Assembly (NCBI GenBank): GCA_017535785.1
Contig: JAFXTN010000025.1
Location: forward strand, 83,361 to 147,360
DNA length: 64,000 nucleotides
Origin: Butyrivibrio sp.
Lineage (GTDB): Bacteria > Bacillota > Clostridia > Lachnospirales > Lachnospiraceae
Reading direction: 5' to 3'
Part shown: positions 3,454 through 64,000 of the stretch, piece after piece
Numbering within the stretch: the stretch's first letter is position 1
How the letters are laid out: the number at the start of each line of letters is the position of its first letter
The notes under the pieces: model-generated
The model's input: only the letters and a program-made list of their open reading frames with translations
What the model was told of the DNA's origin: nothing
Database searches by the model: none
Program-made: the position numbers and the translations under genes

Positions 3454-5205
3454 TCACATAATATCTTCGACGATCTGCTCAGGTGTGATCCTGTTCATCT
3501 TAAGCACTTCGCTTGAAGAAATGCCGTCATAGAATCTCTTTTCGAAGCCGTAGTTAAGGACCTTAACGTCCTTGCCTCCAAGATATGAAGCGATCTTCTG
3601 GCCAAAGCCGCCCTCAAGGATTCCGTCCTCCAAGGTAACGATGGTCTTATGATCCTTGATAAGGTCATCCAAAAGAGCTTTATCAAGCCCTGAAGCATAT
3701 CTGGGATTAACAAGAGTCGCTTTTTTACCTGTCTTCTCTTCAATAAGCTTAGCTGTCTCGCAGCCGATATTGAAGAAATCTCCGAGAGCAAGAACCGCAA
3801 CGTCAGAGCCCTTCTCGCATACCTGATACTTGTTGATATCGCTGTAATCCGAAGCAACCTCATACTTAGCAGCGTTTACGCCGTCGCAAGGAACCGCGAT
3901 GATAGTGGGATGGTCGTTCTGCTCAATGCTATAGTCAAGCATAGCCATAAACTCCTCGCGATTTGAAGGTGAAAGGTACACGATCCCCGGAATGTTGGTA
4001 AAGATACCCATCGCTGAAATTCCGATATGTGTCGCATCTCCCATTCCAAATATTGATGTGGAGAAAAGAACTATCGTAACAGCGCTCTGATTGAGTCCAA
4101 CATCCTGAGTCACCTGATCATACACTCTCTGTGCAAATGTCGCATTGGTGGTAAATATAGGCTTTCCACCGTTCTTGGCGATACCGGAACACATAGCAAC
4201 CGCCTGCTCCTCAGCAATTCCTACATCGACGTAGTTCTTGCCCATCTTGCCTCTTAACTCAGGTGAAAGTCCTAGAGCACCGGGAACGGCTGCGGTAACG
4301 CATACAACTGAGCTGTCTTTTTTTACCTTATCAAGAATGTATGATGCAAAAATATCCTGATAAGACTCTCCGTCGTAGTTAACCCTCTCACCTGTCTCTC
4401 TGTTGAAAGGAATCGCATAGTGCCACTCCTCTTTGTCCTTCTCAGCAGGTGCATAGCCTTTTCCCTTCTGGGTATGAACATGAACAACTGTCGGATGATC
4501 AATATCTTTTACCTCAGAAAAAGCCTTGATAAGGGCTTGTATATCATTGCCCTCCTCTACATACATATAATCAAGTCCCATTGCTCTGAAAAGATTATTC
4601 TCACAAGTACCTCCGCTCTTTCTGAGCTCCTCGAGATTCTTGTAAAGACCGCCGTGATTCTCGGCAATGGACTGCTCGTTATCATTAACGATGATAATGA
4701 GATTGGAATCCATCTCACCTGCATAATCGATACCCTCAAGGGCCTCACCGCCACTGAGAGATCCGTCACCGATTATCGCTACTACGTTGCCTTTTTTGCC
4801 CGAAACATCTCTGCCCTTGGCTAGTCCTGTCGCAAGGCTGACTGATGTTGAAGTATGGCCGATGTAGAACATGTCATGCTCTGACTCGTTTGGATGAGTA
4901 AATCCGCAAACATCGCCAAAATGTGCATCATCATAGTAAGCCGCCGCTCTGCCTGTAAGCATCTTGTGGGTATAAGTCTGGTGCGCAACGTCAAATACAA
5001 ACTGATCCTTGGGTGAATCAAAAACATAGTGAAGCGCGATCGTAAGCTCAACGGCTCCGAAGTTGGGTCCGAAGTGACCTCCTATCTTTGTTGTTCTGTT
5101 AAAAAGAGCTTCTCTTACTTCCGCTGCAAGCTCGATAAGTTCATCATTTGAAAGCTTTTTTACATCGGCAGGGCCCTGAATATTCTTAAGTAACTTGTAT
5201 TCCAT
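3454..5205 (-). CDS. DXS-like thiamine-diphosphate transketolase
   Basis: A 583-residue enzyme with the layout of 1-deoxy-D-xylulose-5-phosphate synthase: ThDP domain with GGHFGPNFGAVELTIALHYV, DVAHQTYTHKMLTGR and the cofactor motif GDGSLSGGEALEG...NDN, then a pyrimidine domain with VGIAEEQAV (general acid Glu) and RVYDQV, then a C-terminal transketolase domain. True DXS is near 620 residues and has a DRAG motif whose Arg binds glyceraldehyde-3-phosphate phosphate; here that place reads STSIFGMGDATH, and the IAEQH motif reads IAEEQ. I therefore call it DXS-like: it may make deoxyxylulose phosphate or join another acceptor. It starts at ATG with AAAGGAT upstream and is the last gene of a unit with a YczE-like membrane protein (32 bp gap) and an AraC regulator. 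Confidence 0.75.
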   Translation of the reverse strand: MEYKLLKNIQGPADVKKLSNDELIELAAEVREALFNRTTKIGGHFGPNFGAVELTIALHYVFDSPKDQFVFDVAHQTYTHKMLTGRAAAYYDDAHFGDVCGFTHPNESEHDMFYIGHTSTSVSLATGLAKGRDVSGKKGNVVAIIGDGSLSGGEALEGIDYAGEMDSNLIIIVNDNEQSIAENHGGLYKNLEELRKSGGTCENNLFRAMGLDYMYVEEGNDIQALIKAFSEVKDIDHPTVVHVHTQKGKGYAPAEKDKEEWHYAIPFNRETGERVNYDGESYQDIFASYILDKVKKDSSVVCVTAAVPGALGLSPELRGKMGKNYVDVGIAEEQAVAMCSGIAKNGGKPIFTTNATFAQRVYDQVTQDVGLNQSAVTIVLFSTSIFGMGDATHIGISAMGIFTNIPGIVYLSPSNREEFMAMLDYSIEQNDHPTIIAVPCDGVNAAKYEVASDYSDINKYQVCEKGSDVAVLALGDFFNIGCETAKLIEEKTGKKATLVNPRYASGLDKALLDDLIKDHKTIVTLEDGILEGGFGQKIASYLGGKDVKVLNYGFEKRFYDGISSSEVLKMNRITPEQIVEDIM

Positions 5206-8968: not shown

Positions 8969-10258
8969 TTAATTGTTGTCGTATATATCCTCGGTGAACG
9001 TCAGACTTCCTCTGTAACCAGCATAAGTACGGTTAAAGATAAGTCTTTCGTTTACAGGGAAAGCTCCCAAGATAAACTGTATCTCTTTTTCCAAAGCAAT
9101 CTCTCGTTCGTTACTGCTTCCGACAAGAAGCGTGATCTCATTCTCTTCTTCTCGTATTGCCTTATTGATCTCGTACTGATCGGTAAGGAAAAGAACCTTC
9201 GGAGGCTTGGCGTACTCAAGATCCTGTATTTCTTTTACTATCCTTTCCTTATCTTCCTGTCTGAAAATAGGCTCTGAAACAATAACAAGCACAGGTGTAA
9301 AGCTGTAGTCATTGGCAAGGTATCTTGTATATCCGACAGCGCTGTTTGCATCGGCTACAACCGCAAATCTCTTCCAGCTGACAACACCGATTGACTGTCC
9401 GAGGTAGTTGTATACATAATCCTCTTCTGCCTCTATCACATCATCCACAAGCTTTTTATCAAGGTTTAGTGCTTCACTGACCTGTCTTATAAACTTGGTA
9501 GTATCGGTAGCTCCGACAAAAAGTCCGGGAATTCTGATACTCGGAACACCGAATTTCTGTTCAAACTTCTTGGCGGGGCCGTTAAAGAGCCAAGGATTGA
9601 CAATGATATTAAGCGCTGCACCGGAGCTCTTTTTAATATCTTCAATTCCCTGATGCTTGGTGAAAAATGTATTGACCTTAAGTCCAAGACCGGAAAGAAT
9701 CCTGTCTATCTCTTCGAGCGTTCCGCTCCAGAAAGGATCGTGATAAGGCACGATTCCGAAGATATTTACAAGCTTATCGTCCTTAGGAACATCTTTTTCT
9801 ATAACCTTATCTATAAATGTATTCCAGATAGTCTCATAACCCAGATTGCTGTCTCCCGCAAAGCCGGGCGTTTCGATGGCATATACTTCGTGACCGTTTT
9901 CTCTGAATTCACTTGTGACGCTCTCAATATCGTCTCCGATGATACCTGCGGTACATCCCGTGAGGACAAAAAACGCATCGGCGTCCATAATGTCTATCGC
10001 GCCCTGTATGGTCGTTCTAAGCTTATTTACTCCGCCGAATACAACCTCTTTTTCCAGCATGTTACTGGACGGGATTGAAACACCGTTTACAAAGCATGAG
10101 TGTTTGTGTCCCGACTGTCCCTGGTCTGCAGCTGTTGTCTGCATACAGCATCCGGGACCCGAATGATAAATTGGGCATACCCTTCCGATAGCTCCAAGTA
10201 CTGAATTTATTCCGGCGAGAACGCATCCGCCCTTTGGATTTTCCATTATCTGTGACAT
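8969..10258 (-). CDS. Nitrogenase component-1-like protein, NifK-like subunit
   Basis: A 429-residue protein of the NifD/NifK/NifE/NifN/BchN superfamily. The three Cys positions that hold the P-cluster half in NifK are present: Cys12 (GGCVLAGINSVLGAIG), Cys37 (HSGPGC, followed by a second Cys38) and Cys102 (TGCTAGIIGDDIESV). Further matches are FAGDSNLGYE and the Rossmann-like C-terminal domain with RFAVVADANSAVGYTRYL. It is shorter than NifK (about 520), as in nitrogenase-like groups that do not fix N2. It overlaps the preceding subunit gene by one base (TAATG), so the two are made together as a heteromer. It is the last gene of an eight-gene operon. The substrate is unknown; no NifH reductase gene is in the window. 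Confidence 0.85.
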   Translation of the reverse strand: MSQIMENPKGGCVLAGINSVLGAIGRVCPIYHSGPGCCMQTTAADQGQSGHKHSCFVNGVSIPSSNMLEKEVVFGGVNKLRTTIQGAIDIMDADAFFVLTGCTAGIIGDDIESVTSEFRENGHEVYAIETPGFAGDSNLGYETIWNTFIDKVIEKDVPKDDKLVNIFGIVPYHDPFWSGTLEEIDRILSGLGLKVNTFFTKHQGIEDIKKSSGAALNIIVNPWLFNGPAKKFEQKFGVPSIRIPGLFVGATDTTKFIRQVSEALNLDKKLVDDVIEAEEDYVYNYLGQSIGVVSWKRFAVVADANSAVGYTRYLANDYSFTPVLVIVSEPIFRQEDKERIVKEIQDLEYAKPPKVLFLTDQYEINKAIREEENEITLLVGSSNEREIALEKEIQFILGAFPVNERLIFNRTYAGYRGSLTFTEDIYDNN

Positions 10259-11712
10259 TAGCCTTCTCCCCCTAAAATATATTTAAACGCATTTTCTTTG
10301 TACCATGAATCCTTGTAAGGGAGCTTAACGTGCTTGGCAAGCTTCTTGTTAAATCCGGGATTTTCAAGCTGATCGGCGATCTTGTTTCCAAGGAAAAGAA
10401 GTCCGTCATAGCCCATCGTAGGCCTCTTTCCGTCAAGTACGTGAGTTGTCGGAATTCCAAGCTTGGCTGCCCACTCAGGAACACCGATAAATGCATCGGG
10501 CTTAAGCTTATTCAAAAGATTCACCTGCTCAAAAGGCTGCATGTTGGCAATATCAACAACGAAATCCTTATGAATCCCGTTCAGGTATTCGATATCAACC
10601 TGCGCATCCGCGTCATATGTGGGTGTCTCAAGTCCGACAAGCTCCATTCCGAAATCATCGATAAGAGCTGCAGCGGCAAATGATCTTCCTGTTCCGCCGC
10701 AGATAAATACTCTTTTTCCCTGAAGCCTTTCTTTTAATTTGGCAACAAGAGGTTCGATTCTCTCATGCTCTGAAGCAATGATCTCTTCAACCTCTTTTTC
10801 TTTTCCTATTACTTTTGCAATTCCTCTGTACCACTTGTCGGTATTTCTTATACCGATGGGCATAACCGTGTGAGAATACGGTATCTCATAATCCTCCCAC
10901 AAGGTCTTCATAAACTCATCGGCGAACACCTTACAAATTGAAGTGGAAGCTTCGGCTGCGGGAATCTTCTTTATCTTTTCAAGCGAACTGTAGAAAGGAA
11001 TATAGTTAACCTTAGCACCCAAGAGAGTTATCATTCTCTCCATCTCTTTTTGATCGGCAAAAGAAACTGTAGTAGGCGCAAAGAGATTTATAAGTCCTTT
11101 CTCTTTTTCCACTTTTTCTTTTTTCAAGATATATTTGTTGATAGAAATAAATGCCGCGTCAAATCCGGAAGCACAAATCTTGGATTTAAAGCCTTCGCAG
11201 TGAATGGGCACCATTATCGTGCCGGGATATTCCGCCTGAAGATCCTGCGCGATCGCATCGATATCATCGCCGATGATACCCGAAGCGCAAGAAGCATAAA
11301 TAAACGCAAGCTTTGGATTGTATCTTTCAACAGCCTTTTGAACCGCATCGCGAAGCTTTTGTTCTCCGCCGAACACAACACTCTTTTGATCTATGTTGGT
11401 GACGATAAGCCTTGGATTCTTAACTGCTTTGATTCCTCTGTGTATCTGACCTACGCGGTACATATCAACAGCCATTATCGCGCATCCGACGCATCCCTGC
11501 GGTGAATGAGAAATAAACACGGAATCTTCCAAAGACATAAGCGCAGCCATGCTGTTGATCTGCTGGCACTGAAGGCCCTGCGCAAAGCTTCTGTCTGCTC
11601 TTTTAAGGCATCCTTTCTTATAATTCTCGGCAACCTCTTTTCCGGTTGATCCAAGATCATTGACTCTTCCCGGTATACTCTCACGTACACCTGAGTATTG
11701 AACGTTAGACAT
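10258..11712 (-). CDS. Nitrogenase component-1-like protein, NifD-like subunit
   Basis: A 484-residue NifD-like protein. Cys35 (KKGCLKRADRSFAQG), Cys74 (SHSPQGC) and Cys142 (ASCASGIIGDDIDAI) sit at the NifD P-cluster ligand places. Cys260 (STSICKVFADEF) and His424 (GIPTTHVLDGKRPTMGYDG) line up with the two FeMo-cofactor ligands Cys275 and His442. By contrast the HCEGFKSKICASGFD stretch puts Cys180 and Phe184 where NifD has Gln191 and His195, residues needed for N2 reduction. This supports a cofactor-bearing reductase with another substrate. Upstream in the operon are an importer for a small organic or oxyanion-like solute and a second ABC exporter-type pair. The alignment was made by eye. Confidence 0.85.
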   Translation of the reverse strand: MSNVQYSGVRESIPGRVNDLGSTGKEVAENYKKGCLKRADRSFAQGLQCQQINSMAALMSLEDSVFISHSPQGCVGCAIMAVDMYRVGQIHRGIKAVKNPRLIVTNIDQKSVVFGGEQKLRDAVQKAVERYNPKLAFIYASCASGIIGDDIDAIAQDLQAEYPGTIMVPIHCEGFKSKICASGFDAAFISINKYILKKEKVEKEKGLINLFAPTTVSFADQKEMERMITLLGAKVNYIPFYSSLEKIKKIPAAEASTSICKVFADEFMKTLWEDYEIPYSHTVMPIGIRNTDKWYRGIAKVIGKEKEVEEIIASEHERIEPLVAKLKERLQGKRVFICGGTGRSFAAAALIDDFGMELVGLETPTYDADAQVDIEYLNGIHKDFVVDIANMQPFEQVNLLNKLKPDAFIGVPEWAAKLGIPTTHVLDGKRPTMGYDGLLFLGNKIADQLENPGFNKKLAKHVKLPYKDSWYKENAFKYILGGEG

Positions 11713-11751
11713 CTCTCTACCTTTCCTTATGACATGTATTACTTAAAAGCA

Positions 11752-12444
11752 TCATGCTCCAAGTTCCGTATAATCAAGCTTCAAATTTATATCCGCAAAA
11801 TCAATTGCTTCACTCTCATGTGAACTGATAATGACTGTACTTCCAAGGTCGCAGAATTTTCTAAGAAGCTTCAAAACGCTCCTGACATTGCCTCTGTCAA
11901 GATTGGCCGTAGGTTCATCCATTATGATAACCTTTGGCTTTGTGACAAGCGCTCTTGCTATCGCGGCTCTTTTGATCTCTCCGCCTGACATATTGCAAGG
12001 AAGCTCATCCTTTAGTGCCGTTAAACCAAGTTCATCCGTGATGAGAGAAAAAAGTTCATCCCCGTCAAAAGACTCATCGTCAGGCACTTTGTTTATCAAA
12101 CATGATATCTTCAGGTTTTCCGATAAAGTCAGATAAGAGATCAAATCGCTTTCCTGAGTCACTATCCCAAGATGATTGTTTCTGAACGAAGAAAGCTCCT
12201 CATCCGAAAGCTTGGTGATATCTTTATTTCCGTAAAAGACACTTCCCGAGCTTGGTTTACTAAGTCCCGAAGCTATATTTAAAAGAGTACTTTTTCCCGC
12301 ACCGCTGTCGCCGCTTATGACAACGAATTTTCCGTACGGAATATCAAGAGATACATTATCAAGCACAACGTTGTCTCTTTTGCCTCTCTTATATTTCTTT
12401 TTAATGTTTTTTATACTGATATCCAAAGTATTATCTGCAGCCAT
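11752..12444 (-). CDS. LolD/MacB-type ABC transporter ATPase
   Basis: A 230-residue ATPase. Walker A GDSGAGKST, Q-loop VTQESDL, signature NMSGGEIKRAAIARAL, Walker B KVIIMDEPTANLD and switch His in ISSHE are all present, so it should be active. It belongs to the LolD/FtsE/MacB branch, which works with FtsX-type permeases rather than with solute-binding proteins. The permease gene ends three bases upstream, and the NifD-like gene starts 39 bp downstream. With DUF4418 and the FtsX permease it forms a second transport system inside the nitrogenase-like operon. Confidence 0.9.
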   Translation of the reverse strand: MAADNTLDISIKNIKKKYKRGKRDNVVLDNVSLDIPYGKFVVISGDSGAGKSTLLNIASGLSKPSSGSVFYGNKDITKLSDEELSSFRNNHLGIVTQESDLISYLTLSENLKISCLINKVPDDESFDGDELFSLITDELGLTALKDELPCNMSGGEIKRAAIARALVTKPKVIIMDEPTANLDRGNVRSVLKLLRKFCDLGSTVIISSHESEAIDFADINLKLDYTELGA

Positions 12445-12447
12445 TCT

Positions 12448-13623
12448 TTACTCCAATACCTCTGTAGGACAGGTTTTCTTGATGTTAAACGCGACACAGG
12501 CAGGTCCTATTATAGCGGTCAAAATAAGTGAGATCAACAACACGATCACCTTTTCATATCCGTAAGGACTTATAAAAGGCAAATTAAGCGTCATTTCTAT
12601 CACTCTGTAGATAAGATCAAAAACAAGAAGTCCGAAAAATGCTCCGAGAACAGCTCCCGGAAAAGAAATCCAAAACGCCTCTTCTATCAGGAATTTTTTG
12701 ACTCCGCTCTTACTTACTCCGACAATTCTCAGTGTCTCAAATTCTTTTTTCCTCTCATTTAAAGTTATGTAGTAAATGATGTATAAAAGCGCTATGCTCA
12801 CAAGAAGAAAAGCAAATGCTATGATCGCATACACCGTTTTCATCCTTCCGATTCCTTGCGATAACTTGGATGAAACAAGATCCGTCGTGACGACGTCAAC
12901 GCCTTCGATACTCGAAAGTTTTCCGACAAGTCTTTGAATATCATCTTTATCCGCGGCCTTTATAAGCACCGCGGATATATCTTTTCCGGTTATTTCTTTT
13001 ACAATGCCCTGTCCCGCTTCTCTTGCATCGGTTATGAGCGTGTCCATATAATCACGACTTACAAAAACGGTGACATCCATGGAAGATCCGCTCTCATCAA
13101 GTACGGCGGCAACATTGTATTTTTTACCGAACATCTGAAAAGTCTTGTCTTCTTTGACTCCCACATTACTTCCGACAATTATCTCACCGTTATCAATTGC
13201 ATTTAAAAAGCTCTTGTCTATCCAAGGTTTAACGGTAAAATCACTGTCTGTATCTATACCGATTATCTGAACCGGCTGATCGCAGCAGGAAGCTTCCAGT
13301 GTCATAAGGAAGGTCTGAGGTGATACTTTCTCAACCCCTTCAATCTCTCCGATCCTATCAAGCACGGAATCATCCATGTAAAAAAAGCTCTTCTTTGCGG
13401 TAATAAGCATGCCTTCCATCTCATCACCATGGCCGTCGGGAACAATGATAAGATCTGCTCCCAGCCTTTCAACCATGTTCTTTCCGCCGTGCTCCGTTCC
13501 AAGAAGGATCAGGCCGATAAGAACGATTGCTGTTGACAAAAGCACTCCTATCAAAGCAATTCCCAAACTTCTGTATAATCTTGAGCTTATGCTTTTTGAA
13601 ATAAGTTTGTGTGTTCCCGACAT
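12448..13623 (-). CDS. FtsX/MacB-type ABC transporter permease
   Basis: A 391-residue permease: one membrane segment at about 20-43, a large extracytoplasmic domain (45-265, with ADLIIVPDGHGDEMEG and ASCCDQPVQIIGID), then three membrane segments at the C-terminus (about 268-290, 320-345, 360-385) with the FtsX signature ETLRIVGVSKSGVKKFLIEEA. The adjacent CC and HGD residues in the outer domain could bind a metal, which is speculation. It works with the LolD-like ATPase encoded three bases downstream, and follows the DUF4418 gene by 11 bp. Its cargo is unknown. Confidence 0.85.
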   Translation of the reverse strand: MSGTHKLISKSISSRLYRSLGIALIGVLLSTAIVLIGLILLGTEHGGKNMVERLGADLIIVPDGHGDEMEGMLITAKKSFFYMDDSVLDRIGEIEGVEKVSPQTFLMTLEASCCDQPVQIIGIDTDSDFTVKPWIDKSFLNAIDNGEIIVGSNVGVKEDKTFQMFGKKYNVAAVLDESGSSMDVTVFVSRDYMDTLITDAREAGQGIVKEITGKDISAVLIKAADKDDIQRLVGKLSSIEGVDVVTTDLVSSKLSQGIGRMKTVYAIIAFAFLLVSIALLYIIYYITLNERKKEFETLRIVGVSKSGVKKFLIEEAFWISFPGAVLGAFFGLLVFDLIYRVIEMTLNLPFISPYGYEKVIVLLISLILTAIIGPACVAFNIKKTCPTEVLE

Positions 13624-13634
13624 TTCTTTTAACC

Positions 13635-14027
13635 TCAGGCTTTTTTGGTAACTATCAAAATATCAACCAGATAAACGGCTGTGATCACAATTCCTACGAT
13701 GATAAGGAACGGTCTTGTAACTACGTTGCAGTGCATGGTCTTCATATCGCAGACAGGCTTTATCACGGGTGAAAGAGCAAGAAGAATTCCGCCGATCACC
13801 TGAACTATCGAAAGAATGAGCTTGGAGTTTTTGATATCGATAGCAAGCTGTCCAAGAGAAAGAATTCCGAGAATGATGCTAAGTGTAACTGCTAATGCTC
13901 TTGTAGCATGGCACTTTGCCTCCATCTCTCCCATGTCTCCGCATACATGTGCAAATGTATAAACTCCGATGATTACGAATATTGCTGCTAAAAGAGCTGC
14001 GATGTTAAGTATTTTATGTGCTTTCAT
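13635..14027 (-). CDS. DUF4418 family membrane protein
   Basis: A 130-residue protein with four predicted membrane helices (about 8-27, 44-62, 68-88, 104-126). Between helices 1 and 2 it has HVCGDMGEMEAKCHATRAL, and between 3 and 4 CDMKTMHCNVVTRP. Paired CH and HC motifs on the same face are typical of DUF4418 and suggest redox or metal binding, although no function is established. It sits between the solute-binding protein (51 bp) and the FtsX permease (11 bp) in the nitrogenase-like operon and probably belongs functionally to the FtsX/LolD pair. Confidence 0.8.
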   Translation of the reverse strand: MKAHKILNIAALLAAIFVIIGVYTFAHVCGDMGEMEAKCHATRALAVTLSIILGILSLGQLAIDIKNSKLILSIVQVIGGILLALSPVIKPVCDMKTMHCNVVTRPFLIIVGIVITAVYLVDILIVTKKA

Positions 14028-14078
14028 TTTTAGGTTGGCCTTTCTTTTTTAGTCTTTTTTATCTAATAGAATTATCGT

Positions 14079-15158
14079 TTATGATTGTTCCTTAAACTCT
14101 TTGGTGTTCGGATCATAAACAAATGTCTCGGGAACTCCCTCAAGATCGGGGAATACCTTCTTTGTAAAATCATCGAGATTCAAATTGGGATCAAGATCTC
14201 CCGTCTTCTGAAGATCCTTAAATGACGCCGTAAAAGTCTCGCGTCCGAGTGTAACGGAAGGCTCATAGTTAAGGCTTGCAAGGATCTCTCCGTATCTTAC
14301 GATATCCTCATCACTCTCCGAAGGCATGTATCCGTTTTCAACCTGAAGTCTTGCTGCTTCCTCGGGAAGCGCCTGAACAAACGCTGCGGCCTTCTGAATT
14401 CCTCTTGCATAAGCTGCGGCGCCCTCGGGGTTGTTCTCAATGAGCTCCTGAGATACATAAGCCTGGCAGCAATATTCCTGTGAAAAGACTTCATCTTCGC
14501 CGATATCAAGTATCTTGATAAAGTCATAGTTCTTTTCCGCGTTGTAAGCTACGGGATCGTGAATACCGATAGCATCTACCGCGCCGTTATCAAGCGCTGT
14601 CGGAAGATCGGTCATTGCATAAGTTACAAACTGAATGTCTGCGTCGGCTCCGTTTACATTAAATCCGAGACTAAAGAGCTTTCTCTTTAGCTGGATGGGT
14701 GCGGAATCCGAAAGAGATGCAACACCGATTGTTTTTCCTTTAAGATCTTCAAGACTCTTAACGCTGCTTCCGTTCTTGGAATAGAACTTGGTGCAGCCTC
14801 TGTGAAGTCCGGTAACGAAAGAGATCGCAAGTCCGTTGGAAATGGGCTGCATAAGTGTTCCCGTAAGCCCGTAGCCTGCATTTATCTCTCCACTCGTTAT
14901 CTGCTCCGTTACGGTATCTATGTTGGAATTAACGATCTCGTACTTCTGTCCTATCGCCGCAAATTCCTCATCAAAATATCCGTTTATTATCGCGATGTGT
15001 ACAGGTGCAAGGCAAAGGCTCTCTTTGTTATTAAGGATCTTTACGACCTGCTTTTCGCCTTCCGCTTTCGCGGATCCTTTACCCTGACATCCGACAAGCA
15101 TACTCATTGTCAAAACAAGACAAAGTATTATTGATATAAGTGCTTTTCCTTTTTTCAT
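14079..15158 (-). CDS. NitT/TauT-type ABC transporter substrate-binding lipoprotein
   Basis: A 359-residue lipoprotein: signal peptide with lipobox LVGC (Cys24), then a periplasmic-binding fold of the SsuA/NMT1-like kind (LAPVHIAIINGYFDEEF, SGEINAGYGLTGTLMQPI, LEDLKGKTIGVASLSDSAP, GAVDAIGIHDPVAYN). This family binds sulfonates, taurine, nitrate, or thiamine precursors, so the ligand is probably a small anion or organosulfur or nitrogen compound. The acidic IGIHDP motif and the CCQAY stretch may lie at the binding cleft. It lies 44 bp after the ATPase gene and presumably delivers the substrate of the nitrogenase-like enzyme, which is inference from context. Confidence 0.85.
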   Translation of the reverse strand: MKKGKALISIILCLVLTMSMLVGCQGKGSAKAEGEKQVVKILNNKESLCLAPVHIAIINGYFDEEFAAIGQKYEIVNSNIDTVTEQITSGEINAGYGLTGTLMQPISNGLAISFVTGLHRGCTKFYSKNGSSVKSLEDLKGKTIGVASLSDSAPIQLKRKLFSLGFNVNGADADIQFVTYAMTDLPTALDNGAVDAIGIHDPVAYNAEKNYDFIKILDIGEDEVFSQEYCCQAYVSQELIENNPEGAAAYARGIQKAAAFVQALPEEAARLQVENGYMPSESDEDIVRYGEILASLNYEPSVTLGRETFTASFKDLQKTGDLDPNLNLDDFTKKVFPDLEGVPETFVYDPNTKEFKEQS

Positions 15159-15202
15159 TTTCTTTTTCTCCCTGATTAGTGCAATCGCCTATAGTACGGC
15201 AA

Positions 15203-15982
15203 TTATAAGTAGTACTCCGGCTCTCTGTTCTCTCCGGCATAATTTAGGATCTCAAGTATCTTGGTCCTGTATTTAAGGAAGTCGTTGCTTCCCCTTGACC
15301 TGGGTCGTCCCAGCTCTATATCGATAACCTGCTCAATCTTGGCCGGTCTCGGTGTCATGATAACAACCTGATCAGACATATAAACCGCCTCATCAACATC
15401 ATGAGTTACCATGATCATTGTCATTTGCTGCTCTTTCCAGATTCTCAGGATCTCGTCCTGCATATTCATTCTGGTAAAAGCATCAAGTGCTCCCAAGGGC
15501 TCATCAAGTAGCAGCACCTTCGGATGTCCGACCAGCGCTCTCGCAAGAGAAGCTCTCTGATTCATACCGCCTGAAAGCTGATGTGGGTAAGAGTTTTCGA
15601 ATCCCTTTAGTCCCACCATTTCAATGTACTCTTTTACATCCTCCTTCTTTTGCTTGTATACTCCTCTGGCCTTAAGACCAAAAGAAATATTTTTTTCTAT
15701 AGAAAGCCATGGATAAAGATTGGCCTGCTGGAATGCAAAGCCTCTGTCATGTCCGGGACCTTTTACCAATTCTCCGTCCAGATATACCGCCCCCGAGTCC
15801 GCAAGATTCAGTCCCGCGATTGCTCGAAGGAGCGTTGTTTTACCGCATCCGGATGGACCTATAAGTGAGATAAAAGAACCTGCTTTTACATTAAGGTCTA
15901 TCTCGTTAAGAGCATTCACAACACCGCCATCTGCATTGATAAAGCTCTTTGAAACTTTTTCTATATTGATCTCGCCTACCAT
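15203..15982 (-). CDS. NitT/TauT-type ABC transporter ATPase (SsuB-like)
   Basis: An approximately 259-residue import ATPase: Walker A GPSGCGKTT at 42-50, Q-loop FAFQQANLYPWL, signature QLSGGMNQRASLARAL, Walker B VLLLDEPLGALDA, and switch MVTHDVDEAV. The start was set at ATG 15982 rather than further upstream: AAGGGAG lies seven bases ahead and the ATG overlaps the last seven bases of the permease gene (ATGGTAG). This overlap indicates coupling. It energises the permease and binding lipoprotein encoded on either side. Confidence 0.9.
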   Translation of the reverse strand: MVGEINIEKVSKSFINADGGVVNALNEIDLNVKAGSFISLIGPSGCGKTTLLRAIAGLNLADSGAVYLDGELVKGPGHDRGFAFQQANLYPWLSIEKNISFGLKARGVYKQKKEDVKEYIEMVGLKGFENSYPHQLSGGMNQRASLARALVGHPKVLLLDEPLGALDAFTRMNMQDEILRIWKEQQMTMIMVTHDVDEAVYMSDQVVIMTPRPAKIEQVIDIELGRPRSRGSNDFLKYRTKILEILNYAGENREPEYYL

Positions 15983-16929
15983 TTGATAACTCCCTTCTGC
16001 CATCCGAGCACTTTGTCTTTGAATTTAAACAAAAGCGTGATGATGAAATTACACAAAACAGCCAAAAGAATGAGTCCTGCATATACATTGGCATACAGCA
16101 TCATGCTCTTTTGCCAGTTAAGATACCAGCCTATACCGGATTTGCATCCGAACATCTCAGCCGTTACGAGAGTTACAAAAGATCCTGTCGTCGCATAAAA
16201 AAATCCGAGGAAAACACTCGGAAGTGCAGCCGGAATTCCAACTTTAAATATTTTGCAGAGCTTGCCTGCTCCCAATGTGTCGGCAACTTCAAAATATGTC
16301 TGCTGCACATTTTGAATTCCGTTGCTCGTCATGACCGTGATCGGAAACCACACGGACAATGCGATCATAAATACCGCCGCCTGATATGATGTGCTAAAAA
16401 GTGAAAGTACAAGCGGTGACCATGATGTCGCGGGTATCGGTCCTATTATCTTGGTAAAAGGATTGACCCAATAAGCTATTTTTTTGTTAAAGCCGATCAG
16501 TATACCTGTTGTAAAACCAAGTATCGCACCTACCGCAAATCCAATGATAAGAAGCTTTCCGGATGAAAGAATACATTCAATGATCAGCGGAAGATCGTTT
16601 ACAAAAACTCCGAATACTCTGTCGAGCGACGGAAAAAACAAAACCGGCAAAAGCGAAAACTTACTGCAAACAAGATTTATTATCGTAAGAAGCAGTGCTC
16701 CTCCCGCAAAGAGCGGACCTTTTTCTTCCAGTTTGTCTGCCGCTTTTTTATTCAAAAAAGAATATCCGTAGAAAGCAACAAATATGACACCTACAATAAA
16801 AAGAAAATATGTAAAGTACGGTGCCTGCGCCTGTGGCTGAATAGTCGAATTCGGAATAAGAACCTGAATCAGGATCGCGAATATAAGCGAAGCGATCACA
16901 CTGAGCCGTTTAGTCTGTTTAAGTAGCAA
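15976..16929 (-). CDS. NitT/TauT-type ABC transporter permease (SsuC-like)
   Basis: A 317-residue membrane protein with about seven hydrophobic helices and the BPD_transp_1 EAA-like loop EVADTLGAGKLCKIFKVGIPAALPSVFLG. The N-terminal 90 residues carry two to three extra helices not found in the shortest SsuC proteins. The start is a TTG at 16929 with GAGGAGG nine bases upstream. An ATG closer to the same ribosome binding site is out of frame and stops after five codons. It is the first gene of the nitrogenase-like operon, following a leader hairpin at 16955-17000. Confidence 0.85.
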   Translation of the reverse strand: MLLKQTKRLSVIASLIFAILIQVLIPNSTIQPQAQAPYFTYFLFIVGVIFVAFYGYSFLNKKAADKLEEKGPLFAGGALLLTIINLVCSKFSLLPVLFFPSLDRVFGVFVNDLPLIIECILSSGKLLIIGFAVGAILGFTTGILIGFNKKIAYWVNPFTKIIGPIPATSWSPLVLSLFSTSYQAAVFMIALSVWFPITVMTSNGIQNVQQTYFEVADTLGAGKLCKIFKVGIPAALPSVFLGFFYATTGSFVTLVTAEMFGCKSGIGWYLNWQKSMMLYANVYAGLILLAVLCNFIITLLFKFKDKVLGWQKGVIKW

Positions 16930-17113: not shown

Positions 17114-17743
17114 TTATTTTCCGTCAGGGAAGCTTGTAAATGCGCCGCTCTCAAGCGTAGGAAGTCCGTACTTCTCCTTAGCATCGCCGATAGCTTTTAT
17201 CATAAACGCCATGTTGCGGGCAAGATTTCTCATTGTCTGAAGGCCTTCCTTGTCCTTAAGAACATCTTCCGCCGTATGACCGTGCACCTGATTCCAATAT
17301 GTCGAAGAAGCAACAGGCATTCCGCTTATAGTAAAGTACTTATTAAGTACGTCAAAGGTCGCAGTATTGCCACCTCTTCTGCAGCTTGTAACAGCCGCTC
17401 CGACTTTCATCTGCTTGGAAAAATGTGAGCTAAAAAATAATCTGTCCAAGAACGAAAGAATTGTTCCGTTTGGTGAAGCGTAGTAAACAGGGCTTCCCAC
17501 GATAAGTCCGTCTGCCTCTTCAAACTTCCTTGCAACTTCATTTACAAGATCATCATCAAATACACATTTTCCTGTGTTTCCGCAAGAACCGCAGCATACG
17601 CAGCCTCTTACGGCCTTGTTGCCGACATGTATAAGCTCAGTATCTATTCCTTCTTCATTCAAAACCTTTATAACCTCAGCGAGCGCTGTCGCTGTGCAGC
17701 CGTTAGCCTTGGGGCTGCCGTTTAATAAAATAACCTTAGCCAT
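17114..17743 (-). CDS. Iron-sulfur flavoprotein / NADPH-dependent FMN reductase family
   Basis: A 209-residue flavodoxin-fold protein. The FMN phosphate loop is LLNGSPKANGCTATAL and the substrate/flavin loop is GSPVYYASPNGTILSFLDRL. A cluster of four Cys, GCVCCGSCGNTGKCVFDDD (about 47-65), is typical of iron-sulfur flavoproteins binding a 4Fe-4S cluster, or of the related reductases. It lies directly upstream, same strand, of the nitrogenase-like operon and could donate electrons to it, but a terminator-like hairpin separates them. A strong AGGAGG stands before the ATG. Divergent from rqcH, with 178 bp between. Confidence 0.85.
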   Translation of the reverse strand: MAKVILLNGSPKANGCTATALAEVIKVLNEEGIDTELIHVGNKAVRGCVCCGSCGNTGKCVFDDDLVNEVARKFEEADGLIVGSPVYYASPNGTILSFLDRLFFSSHFSKQMKVGAAVTSCRRGGNTATFDVLNKYFTISGMPVASSTYWNQVHGHTAEDVLKDKEGLQTMRNLARNMAFMIKAIGDAKEKYGLPTLESGAFTSFPDGK

Positions 17744-63722: not shown

Positions 63723-63833
63723 GAATTCATTTATAAGTTTTTTATATTTTTCTTTATTTGTTCAAAAAAGGCAAAAAAAATCTTGTACCTTCAAAACCGA
63801 ACACTGAATTTCTCCAGATCTATACATCTTTAT
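63723..63833 (-). other. Spacer after 23S rRNA, no 5S gene
   Basis: On the minus strand this runs from the 23S 3' end to the terminator. It contains TTCAGTGTTCGGTTTTGAAGG, a stretch like that often found after 23S in clostridia, and T-runs. No 5S rRNA sequence (no ACGGG/CCGAACA-type 5S core of about 117 nt) is present. Confidence 0.7.
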
Positions 63834-64000
63834 GGATAAGCCCTCGACCTATTAGTACACATCAGCTGAACATGTTACCATGCTTACACCTTGTGCCTAT
63901 CTAACCTCATACTCTCTAAGGGGTCTTACTGGACAAACCAGGGATATCTCATCTTGAGGGGGGCTTCACGCTTAGATGCCTTCAGCGTTTATCCCTTCCG
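63834..64000 (-). rRNA. rrl: 23S rRNA, 3' end (partial)
   Basis: The minus strand ends with GTACTAATAGGTCGAGGGCT, the conserved 3' terminus of 23S rRNA, preceded by the helix 98-101 region with AAGATGAGATATCCCTGGTT-like sequence and CTAAAGGGATAAACGC-type core. The rest of the gene lies beyond the window. The exact mature 3' end (about 63831-63836) is estimated from the conserved GGGCTTATCC. Confidence 0.95.

Follow-up and report, generated by a model that had tools for sequence, protein, structure and literature searches.

A conserved nitrogenase-like operon of Butyrivibrio with a probable partner NifH on a separate contig and a plausible role in sulfur assimilation

What is the task of a nitrogenase-like enzyme that is encoded together with an ABC importer, and which protein supplies its electrons if no NifH is encoded beside it? 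These questions are raised by a stretch of 64,000 nucleotides (the window, at its full length) from a Butyrivibrio sp. genome (GCA_017535785.1, contig JAFXTN010000025.1). At 8969-16929 of the window eight open reading frames (ORFs) lie on the minus strand, adjacent ORFs overlapping or being at most 51 nt apart. In 5' to 3' order they encode an importer permease, an importer ATPase, a binding lipoprotein, a DUF4418 protein, an FtsX-like permease, a LolD-type ATPase and a NifD- and a NifK-like subunit, here called D1 and K1. An initial annotation, made from the DNA letters, had named these families, and the assignment of the ORFs with Pfam and NCBIfam profiles agrees with it. D1 (484 aa, 10258-11712) and K1 (429 aa, 8969-10258) match Oxidored_nitro (PF00148) with E-values of 1e-79 and 4e-71, which is too strong to be a matter of chance. 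We consider it slightly better than an even bet (probability roughly 0.55) that D1K1 is an ATP-driven Group IV reductase of sulfur assimilation that supplies the cysteine synthase CysK with sulfide or a thiol released from a small compound taken up by the importer. The system is conserved, has a plausible sulfur-related job and is not NifH-less.

To locate possible partners the whole genome (39 contigs, 90.8% complete, 3.3% contaminated; the window belongs to contig C4) was searched with PF00142. The search gave four matches, on contigs C16, C23, C6 and C25, and none in the window. The absence of NifH pointed out in the initial annotation therefore holds for the operon and the 64 kb, but not for the genome: C16 encodes a full-length NifH (E 1.4e-130), which reaches 465 bits on TIGR01287 (cut-off 394). 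An orphan NifH elsewhere had been considered from the start, together with a genome check for NifH and NifB genes, and a NifB-like gene is found on C16 as well. Both belong to a same-strand run of CysK, a PatB-family C-S lyase, a transsulfuration-family enzyme, the NifB-like protein, a NifX-type protein and NifH, continuing downstream with a CysK-like gene, a second DK pair (D2 and K2), another NifX-type gene, a substrate-binding protein (SBP), a permease and an ATPase. CysK (445 bits, cut-off 351) and the C-S lyase (459 bits, cut-off 340) reach their cut-offs, while the NifB-like protein (270 bits, cut-off 344) and the transsulfuration-family enzyme (all cut-offs shown) stay under them. A working label MalY for the second gene of the run was dropped, as the profile identifies a PatB-family C-S lyase. 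PF00148 has four matches in the genome, namely D1, K1, D2 and K2. Together with the C16 run this means that two DK pairs have a single NifH and a single NifB-like protein at their disposal, and the C16 NifH would then serve D1K1.

The operon order across relatives was compared for the best 80 of 168 D1 relatives from a contig scan (83-96% identity). They come from Butyrivibrio, other Lachnospiraceae, metagenome-assembled genomes (MAGs) labelled Ruminococcus, Ruminiclostridium hungatei and Treponema, and many are of rumen or gut origin by record title. K1 accompanies D1 in 79 out of the 80 loci (identity at least 70%). NifH (at least 85% identity) lies inside the fetched flank of 20 loci, and D2 or K2 inside that of 38. 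Of the loci whose sequence extends 9 kb or more beyond D1 on the upstream side (42), 17 have NifH upstream and 25 have K2 there. An order often seen is CysK-NifB-NifX-NifH-(CysK)-D2-K2-NifX-D1-K1. Because D1K1 follows NifB-NifX-NifH-D2-K2 in many relatives, the window operon is a displaced part of a sulfur operon with two DK pairs and one NifH. In six Butyrivibrio loci (L010-L015) neither NifH nor D2 was found near D1, and five of these six genomes carry D2 elsewhere. Among 150 sampled genomes of the family D1 occurs in six (88-100% identity), and all six also possess D2 (81-100%) and NifH (91-100%); a co-occurring NifH of this sort is what, according to the initial annotation, would remove the NifH-less aspect.

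By sequence comparison D1 is a Group IV nitrogenase-like protein, and the separate clade to which it belongs is made up of gut Firmicutes and Treponema. D1 and K1 each match 18 models of the nitrogenase, NifE/N, Bch and CfbD types, in every case with a score far below the curated cut-off (D1 on the NifD model: 141 bits against a cut-off of 654). The best solved relatives are subunits of the methylthio-alkane reductase Mar, MarD for D1 (E 1.9e-68) and MarK (9d9u_C) for K1 (E 7.5e-71), and the next distinct PDB proteins follow at 3e-32 and 2e-26, respectively. The identity of D1 amounts to 31.6% with MarD, 30.2% with D2, 31-37% with two rows of a group labelled X, and 23-24% with a NifD and a NifE row (one each). 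In trees of 65 and 52 sequences, both built from the D subunit only, D1 and its relatives form a clade by themselves (support 100/100). This clade neighbours, with moderate support (89/51, then 93/87), a clade characterized by an Arg-His loop, with the X clade outside. In the 52-sequence tree the Arg-His-loop clade (100/99) excludes D1. NifD, alternative NifD and NifE rows are separated from the D1 side by a 100/100 branch; these rows represent 14 usable loci out of 26 (L118-L137, L142-L147; 23 were asked, eight had no usable ORF and the wrong ORF of L132 was dropped), and seven of the 14, plus part of the D1 and D2 rows, entered the 52-sequence tree. Ordered by profile score X is nearest to D1, followed by Mar, D2 and NifD, so that the deep branching of D1 in the trees is tentative.

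In the MAFFT alignments the P-cluster cysteines Cys49, Cys74 and Cys142 of D1 and the cofactor cysteine Cys260 are kept in 19/19 D1 rows, as are Cys12, Cys37 and Cys102 of K1 in 19/19 K1 rows within an alignment of 47 K rows. Of the six P-cluster cysteines picked by eye five are thereby borne out; for D1 Cys35 had been chosen as the third, a column with Cys in D1 and X-clade rows only, whereas at Cys49 the MarD, NifD, NifE and related rows have Cys without exception. D1 His424 falls into the NifD His442 column, ten residues ahead of a shared Gly-aromatic pair. Profile alignments pair this column with NifD and NifE and not with the shorter, shifted loop of alternative NifD. Cys180 of D1 occupies the column of MarD Trp195 and NifD Gln191. 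The loop-I Arg-His is absent from all 19 D1 rows and present in 15/15 D2 rows, 9/9 MarD and Mar-like rows and 3/3 rows of a third DK type; four X rows have the loop-I His without the Arg.

A further hint towards the function arises from the neighbourhood. Genes for a CymR/Rrf2-like regulator, NifS, NifU, serine acetyltransferase, rhodanese-ThiF and CysK-like proteins recur near D1K1, as do polar-amino-acid-type ABC sets (identified by eye). One representative of each family was checked by profile: an equivalog cut-off is reached by NifS, NifU and serine acetyltransferase (150.6 bits on the EpsC model, cut-off 150) and missed by CymR, NifB and the second CysK. This neighbourhood speaks for the sulfur-type substrate that the initial annotation had listed among its suggestions. 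In a genus mate (G291, locus L171) a K-D pair of another clade is found in the order CysK-MalY-Met17-NifB-NifX-NifH-CysK-K-D (MalY and Met17 being working labels), followed by a permease and an ATPase of the window importer type and then DUF4418-FtsX-ATPase, which indicates that the transporter module of the window goes with such nitrogenase-like systems. The source genome (G000) has no match to the sulfite reductase profile PF01077 or to PF01507, and sulfate and sulfite thus look unusable by known routes.

From this we propose the following mechanism. The SsuABC-type importer would bring in a small anion or organosulfur compound, which D1K1, probably an alpha2beta2 catalytic part, would cleave reductively. 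Electrons would come, under consumption of ATP, from the single NifH encoded on C16, and would be handed by the six-cysteine P-cluster to an [Fe8S9C] cluster made by the NifB-like protein of the C16 run and held by Cys260 and probably His424 of D1. The sulfide (or thiol) set free may then be trapped by CysK or by the transsulfuration-family enzyme; the route from sulfide to CysK is favored because of the CysK profile match.

One must keep in mind several observations that weigh against this proposal. Nitrogen fixation has been reported for Group IV-A proteins of Endomicrobium (PMC11257099, PMC9147875), so placement in Group IV alone need not mean a sulfur role. The working label Met17 for the transsulfuration-family gene (L005, 7410-8588) was not confirmed as an O-acetylhomoserine sulfhydrylase. 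The SBP was found at 40% identity or more in 16 out of the 80 D1 loci, i.e. the importer lies near D1K1 only in some relatives, and in the close relative L010 no importer is present between the flavoprotein gene and D1. Moreover, the profile models of the SBP tie between nitrate/bicarbonate and sulfonate binders. The absences in the source genome are provisional at a completeness of 91%, and PF01507 has matches in 6 out of 14 genomes, strong ones in two of Butyrivibrio hungatei (G301, G303). Finally, the co-occurrence with NifH seen in the six family genomes was not observed in all carriers: in 8 of the 13 D1 genomes without a D2 match, all eight MAGs by title and one of them G344, no NifH above 50% identity was found. 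The remaining five carry a NifH orthologue (89-97%, one partial). For the 37 D1 genomes with D2 the genome-wide NifH search covered two (G299, G304), and both possess NifH.

The most likely alternative, though a doubtful one, is that D1K1 reduces oxidised sulfur, i.e. sulfite or a sulfonate completely, to sulfide and so replaces the siroheme sulfite reductase, perhaps sequentially with D2K2. An importer of the sulfonate class and the linkage to CysK would fit. PF01077 is found in 70 out of the 150 family genomes, but in none of the ten with D2 (hypergeometric P 0.0014), none of the six with D1 (P 0.021) and 3 of the 18 with any D match (P 0.0055), these values being uncorrected for kinship, from which the absence may likewise follow. 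The three exceptions (G024, G099, G103) carry other Group IV D proteins, and in a selection of 27 genomes carrying D1, D2 or X PF01077 is found once, in the D1 genome G333. Sulfite is at most a putative substrate.

Somewhat less likely still, D1K1 could be a NifEN-like platform on which the cluster of D2K2 is assembled. D2 was found genome-wide at 77% identity or more in 37 of the 50 D1 genomes searched, one more (G344) has K2 at a contig edge (L047), and the other 30, judged by the flank alone, all have D2 or K2, leading to 68 out of 80. NifX-type genes stand beside both pairs, and four Bacillota NifE rows have a His in the column of D1 His424. The K-like subunit of the NifEN maturase has a reduced cysteine set, whereas K1 retains all three P-cluster cysteines. 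D2 occurs in ten of the 150 family genomes (77-100%), four of which lack D1, and the MAGs G340 and G341 (L065, L194) carry NifB-NifX-NifH-CysK-NifX-importer and D1K1 on one contig while no D2 was detected genome-wide, although in such MAGs it may lie elsewhere. Mar, furthermore, works with a single DK pair (PMC12552129).

That D1K1 is an Nfa-type (IV-A) member of the Group IV nitrogenases and fixes N2 seems improbable. Cys260 and His424 match the columns of the NifD cofactor ligands Cys275 and His442, and for NfaDK of Endomicrobium a complete set of ligands for N2 reduction has been claimed (PMC9147875). The equivalents of Gln191, His195 and the homocitrate residue Lys426 of the Mo, V and Fe nitrogenases are, however, missing from the D1 columns: Cys and Phe occupy the Gln191 and His195 columns in 19/19 rows, and the Lys426 region reads GVPEWAA. 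The genome contains no NifD/K/E/N-like gene beyond the two DK pairs, and the neighbours are sulfur genes. A NifH-free system, fed by the nearby flavoprotein or another donor, would agree with the lack of NifH in the window and with seven D1-bearing MAGs in which neither a NifH orthologue nor D2 was detected, but is very improbable given the full NifH in the genome, the possible incompleteness of such MAGs and the flavoprotein gene, proposed initially as donor, having a counterpart (at least 50% identity) in only 2 out of 80 loci, which disqualifies it as a conserved electron donor.

Nitrogenase-like enzymes with large Fe-S clusters form a short list, and D1K1 can be compared to the known systems. 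The initial annotation knew of no described function. The related Mar and Isr enzymes are in fact characterised, and Dos Santos et al in 2012 already linked Cys275-bearing NifD-like proteins to cysteine synthase (PMC3464626), a linkage and cysteine pattern as in D1; new are the D1 clade and its ligand pattern. According to that paper His442 occurs in none of the alpha-like sequences it analysed, whereas the D1 clade has a His in this column. Mar (MarBHDK) of Rhodospirillum rubrum, which splits methylthio compounds into methanethiol and a hydrocarbon, resembles D1K1 in its NifB- and NifH-type partners, six P-cluster cysteines and sulfur role (for D1K1 a proposed one), and its cofactor ligand Cys270 has an equivalent in D1 Cys260 (PMC12552129). 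In contrast to Mar, D1 lacks the loop-I Arg428-His429 proposed as the hallmark of Mar (PMC12552129), has Cys at Trp195 and His in the His442 column, lies outside the Mar clade and is encoded, together with a second DK pair, in a genome with one NifH. The isethionate reductase Isr (IsrBHDK) of Rhodobacter capsulatus is likewise a nitrogenase-like reductase of sulfur assimilation with an SsuCAB importer and a radical SAM partner; by its published pattern IsrD has one P-cluster cysteine and lacks both Cys275 and His442, and IsrB does not resemble NifB (PMC11423573), whereas D1 has three P-cluster cysteines and both ligand columns, and the genome has a NifB-like protein. Heliophilum fasciatum is described with several DK pairs (NflDK1-5) beside one NifH-like and one NifB-like gene, similar to our case, with a sulfur role proposed for one pair and no classical sulfite reductase (PMC9147875). 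Placement among Mar or CfbD, which the initial annotation thought could supply a known function, did not result: CfbD is a D subunit alone with no K homologue (PMC11423573), whereas K1 adjoins D1. Within PMC full texts, judged mostly by titles and openings of abstracts and excluding preprints, no paper was recognisably about the D1 clade.

With its His in the nitrogenase ligand column and no Mar loop, the D1 clade bears on the second cofactor ligand of the Mar/nitrogenase ancestor, left open in PMC12552129, and operons sharing one NifH suggest nitrogenase-type chemistry as a possible way in which rumen bacteria obtain sulfur. There is an outside chance that D1 represents an undescribed reductase clade in the full sense: [Fe8S9C] would sit on a nitrogenase-like Cys/His pair instead of the Mar loop, NifH and NifB would be shared with the Mar-like D2K2, and both pairs together would convert an imported sulfur compound, organic or oxidised, fully into sulfide, which would make up for siroheme sulfite reductase in rumen Lachnospiraceae and in Treponema.

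Further DK types were seen along the way. Three D1-bearing genomes (L168, L169, L170) carry a third type with the Arg-His loop, next to ABC genes of the polar-amino-acid type. Ruminiclostridium hungatei G333 (L191, L192, L193, L074) has five types: D1, D2, Mar (73% to MarD), Mar-like and X. On the Treponema saccharophilum plasmid pTS2 (L196) two nitrogenase-component-1 pairs are annotated around an importer, along with genes for an O-acetylhomoserine enzyme, CysK, radical SAM, NifX-type and NifH proteins.

The other genes of the window operon, all on the minus strand, complete the picture. The importer belongs to the SsuA/TauA/NrtA class, in agreement with the NitT/TauT type assigned initially. 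It consists of an SsuC/TauC-class permease (15976-16929, BPD_transp_1 PF00528, E 2e-19, with an uncertain TTG start), an SsuB/TauB-class ATPase (15203-16003, best NCBIfam model SaoA with 281 bits, under the cut-off of 360) and an SsuA/NMT1-class lipoprotein, the SBP (14079-15158, Pfam NMT1 and NCBIfam). Besides the lipobox Cys24 the SBP has invariant Cys49, His119, Cys122, Cys230 and Cys231 (16/16 aligned homologues, full-length numbering). Such a set is unusual for binding proteins of this class, and a thiol or metal ligand is conceivable. The DUF4418 membrane protein (13635-14027, PF14387, E 2e-17) has near-invariant Cys29, Cys39, Cys93, Met98 and Cys100 (17 aligned rows, the window protein counted twice) and accompanies FtsX-LolD in several nitrogenase-like operons; it might handle a metal or soft ligand. 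The FtsX-like permease (12448-13623, PF02687, E 1e-15) is followed by the LolD/FtsE-type ATPase (11752-12444, Pfam and NCBIfam, every NCBIfam match shown being under its cut-off). The FMN_red-family flavoprotein gene (17114-17743, minus strand, PF03358) neighbours the operon with weak linkage and also adjoins D1 in L010. A transketolase-like gene (3454-5205, identified by eye) is in local synteny with D1K1, its counterpart lying 3' of D1K1 in the Butyrivibrio loci L010, L011, L014 and L015. At the window edge (63832-64000, minus strand) the 3' end of the bacterial 23S rRNA model is matched.

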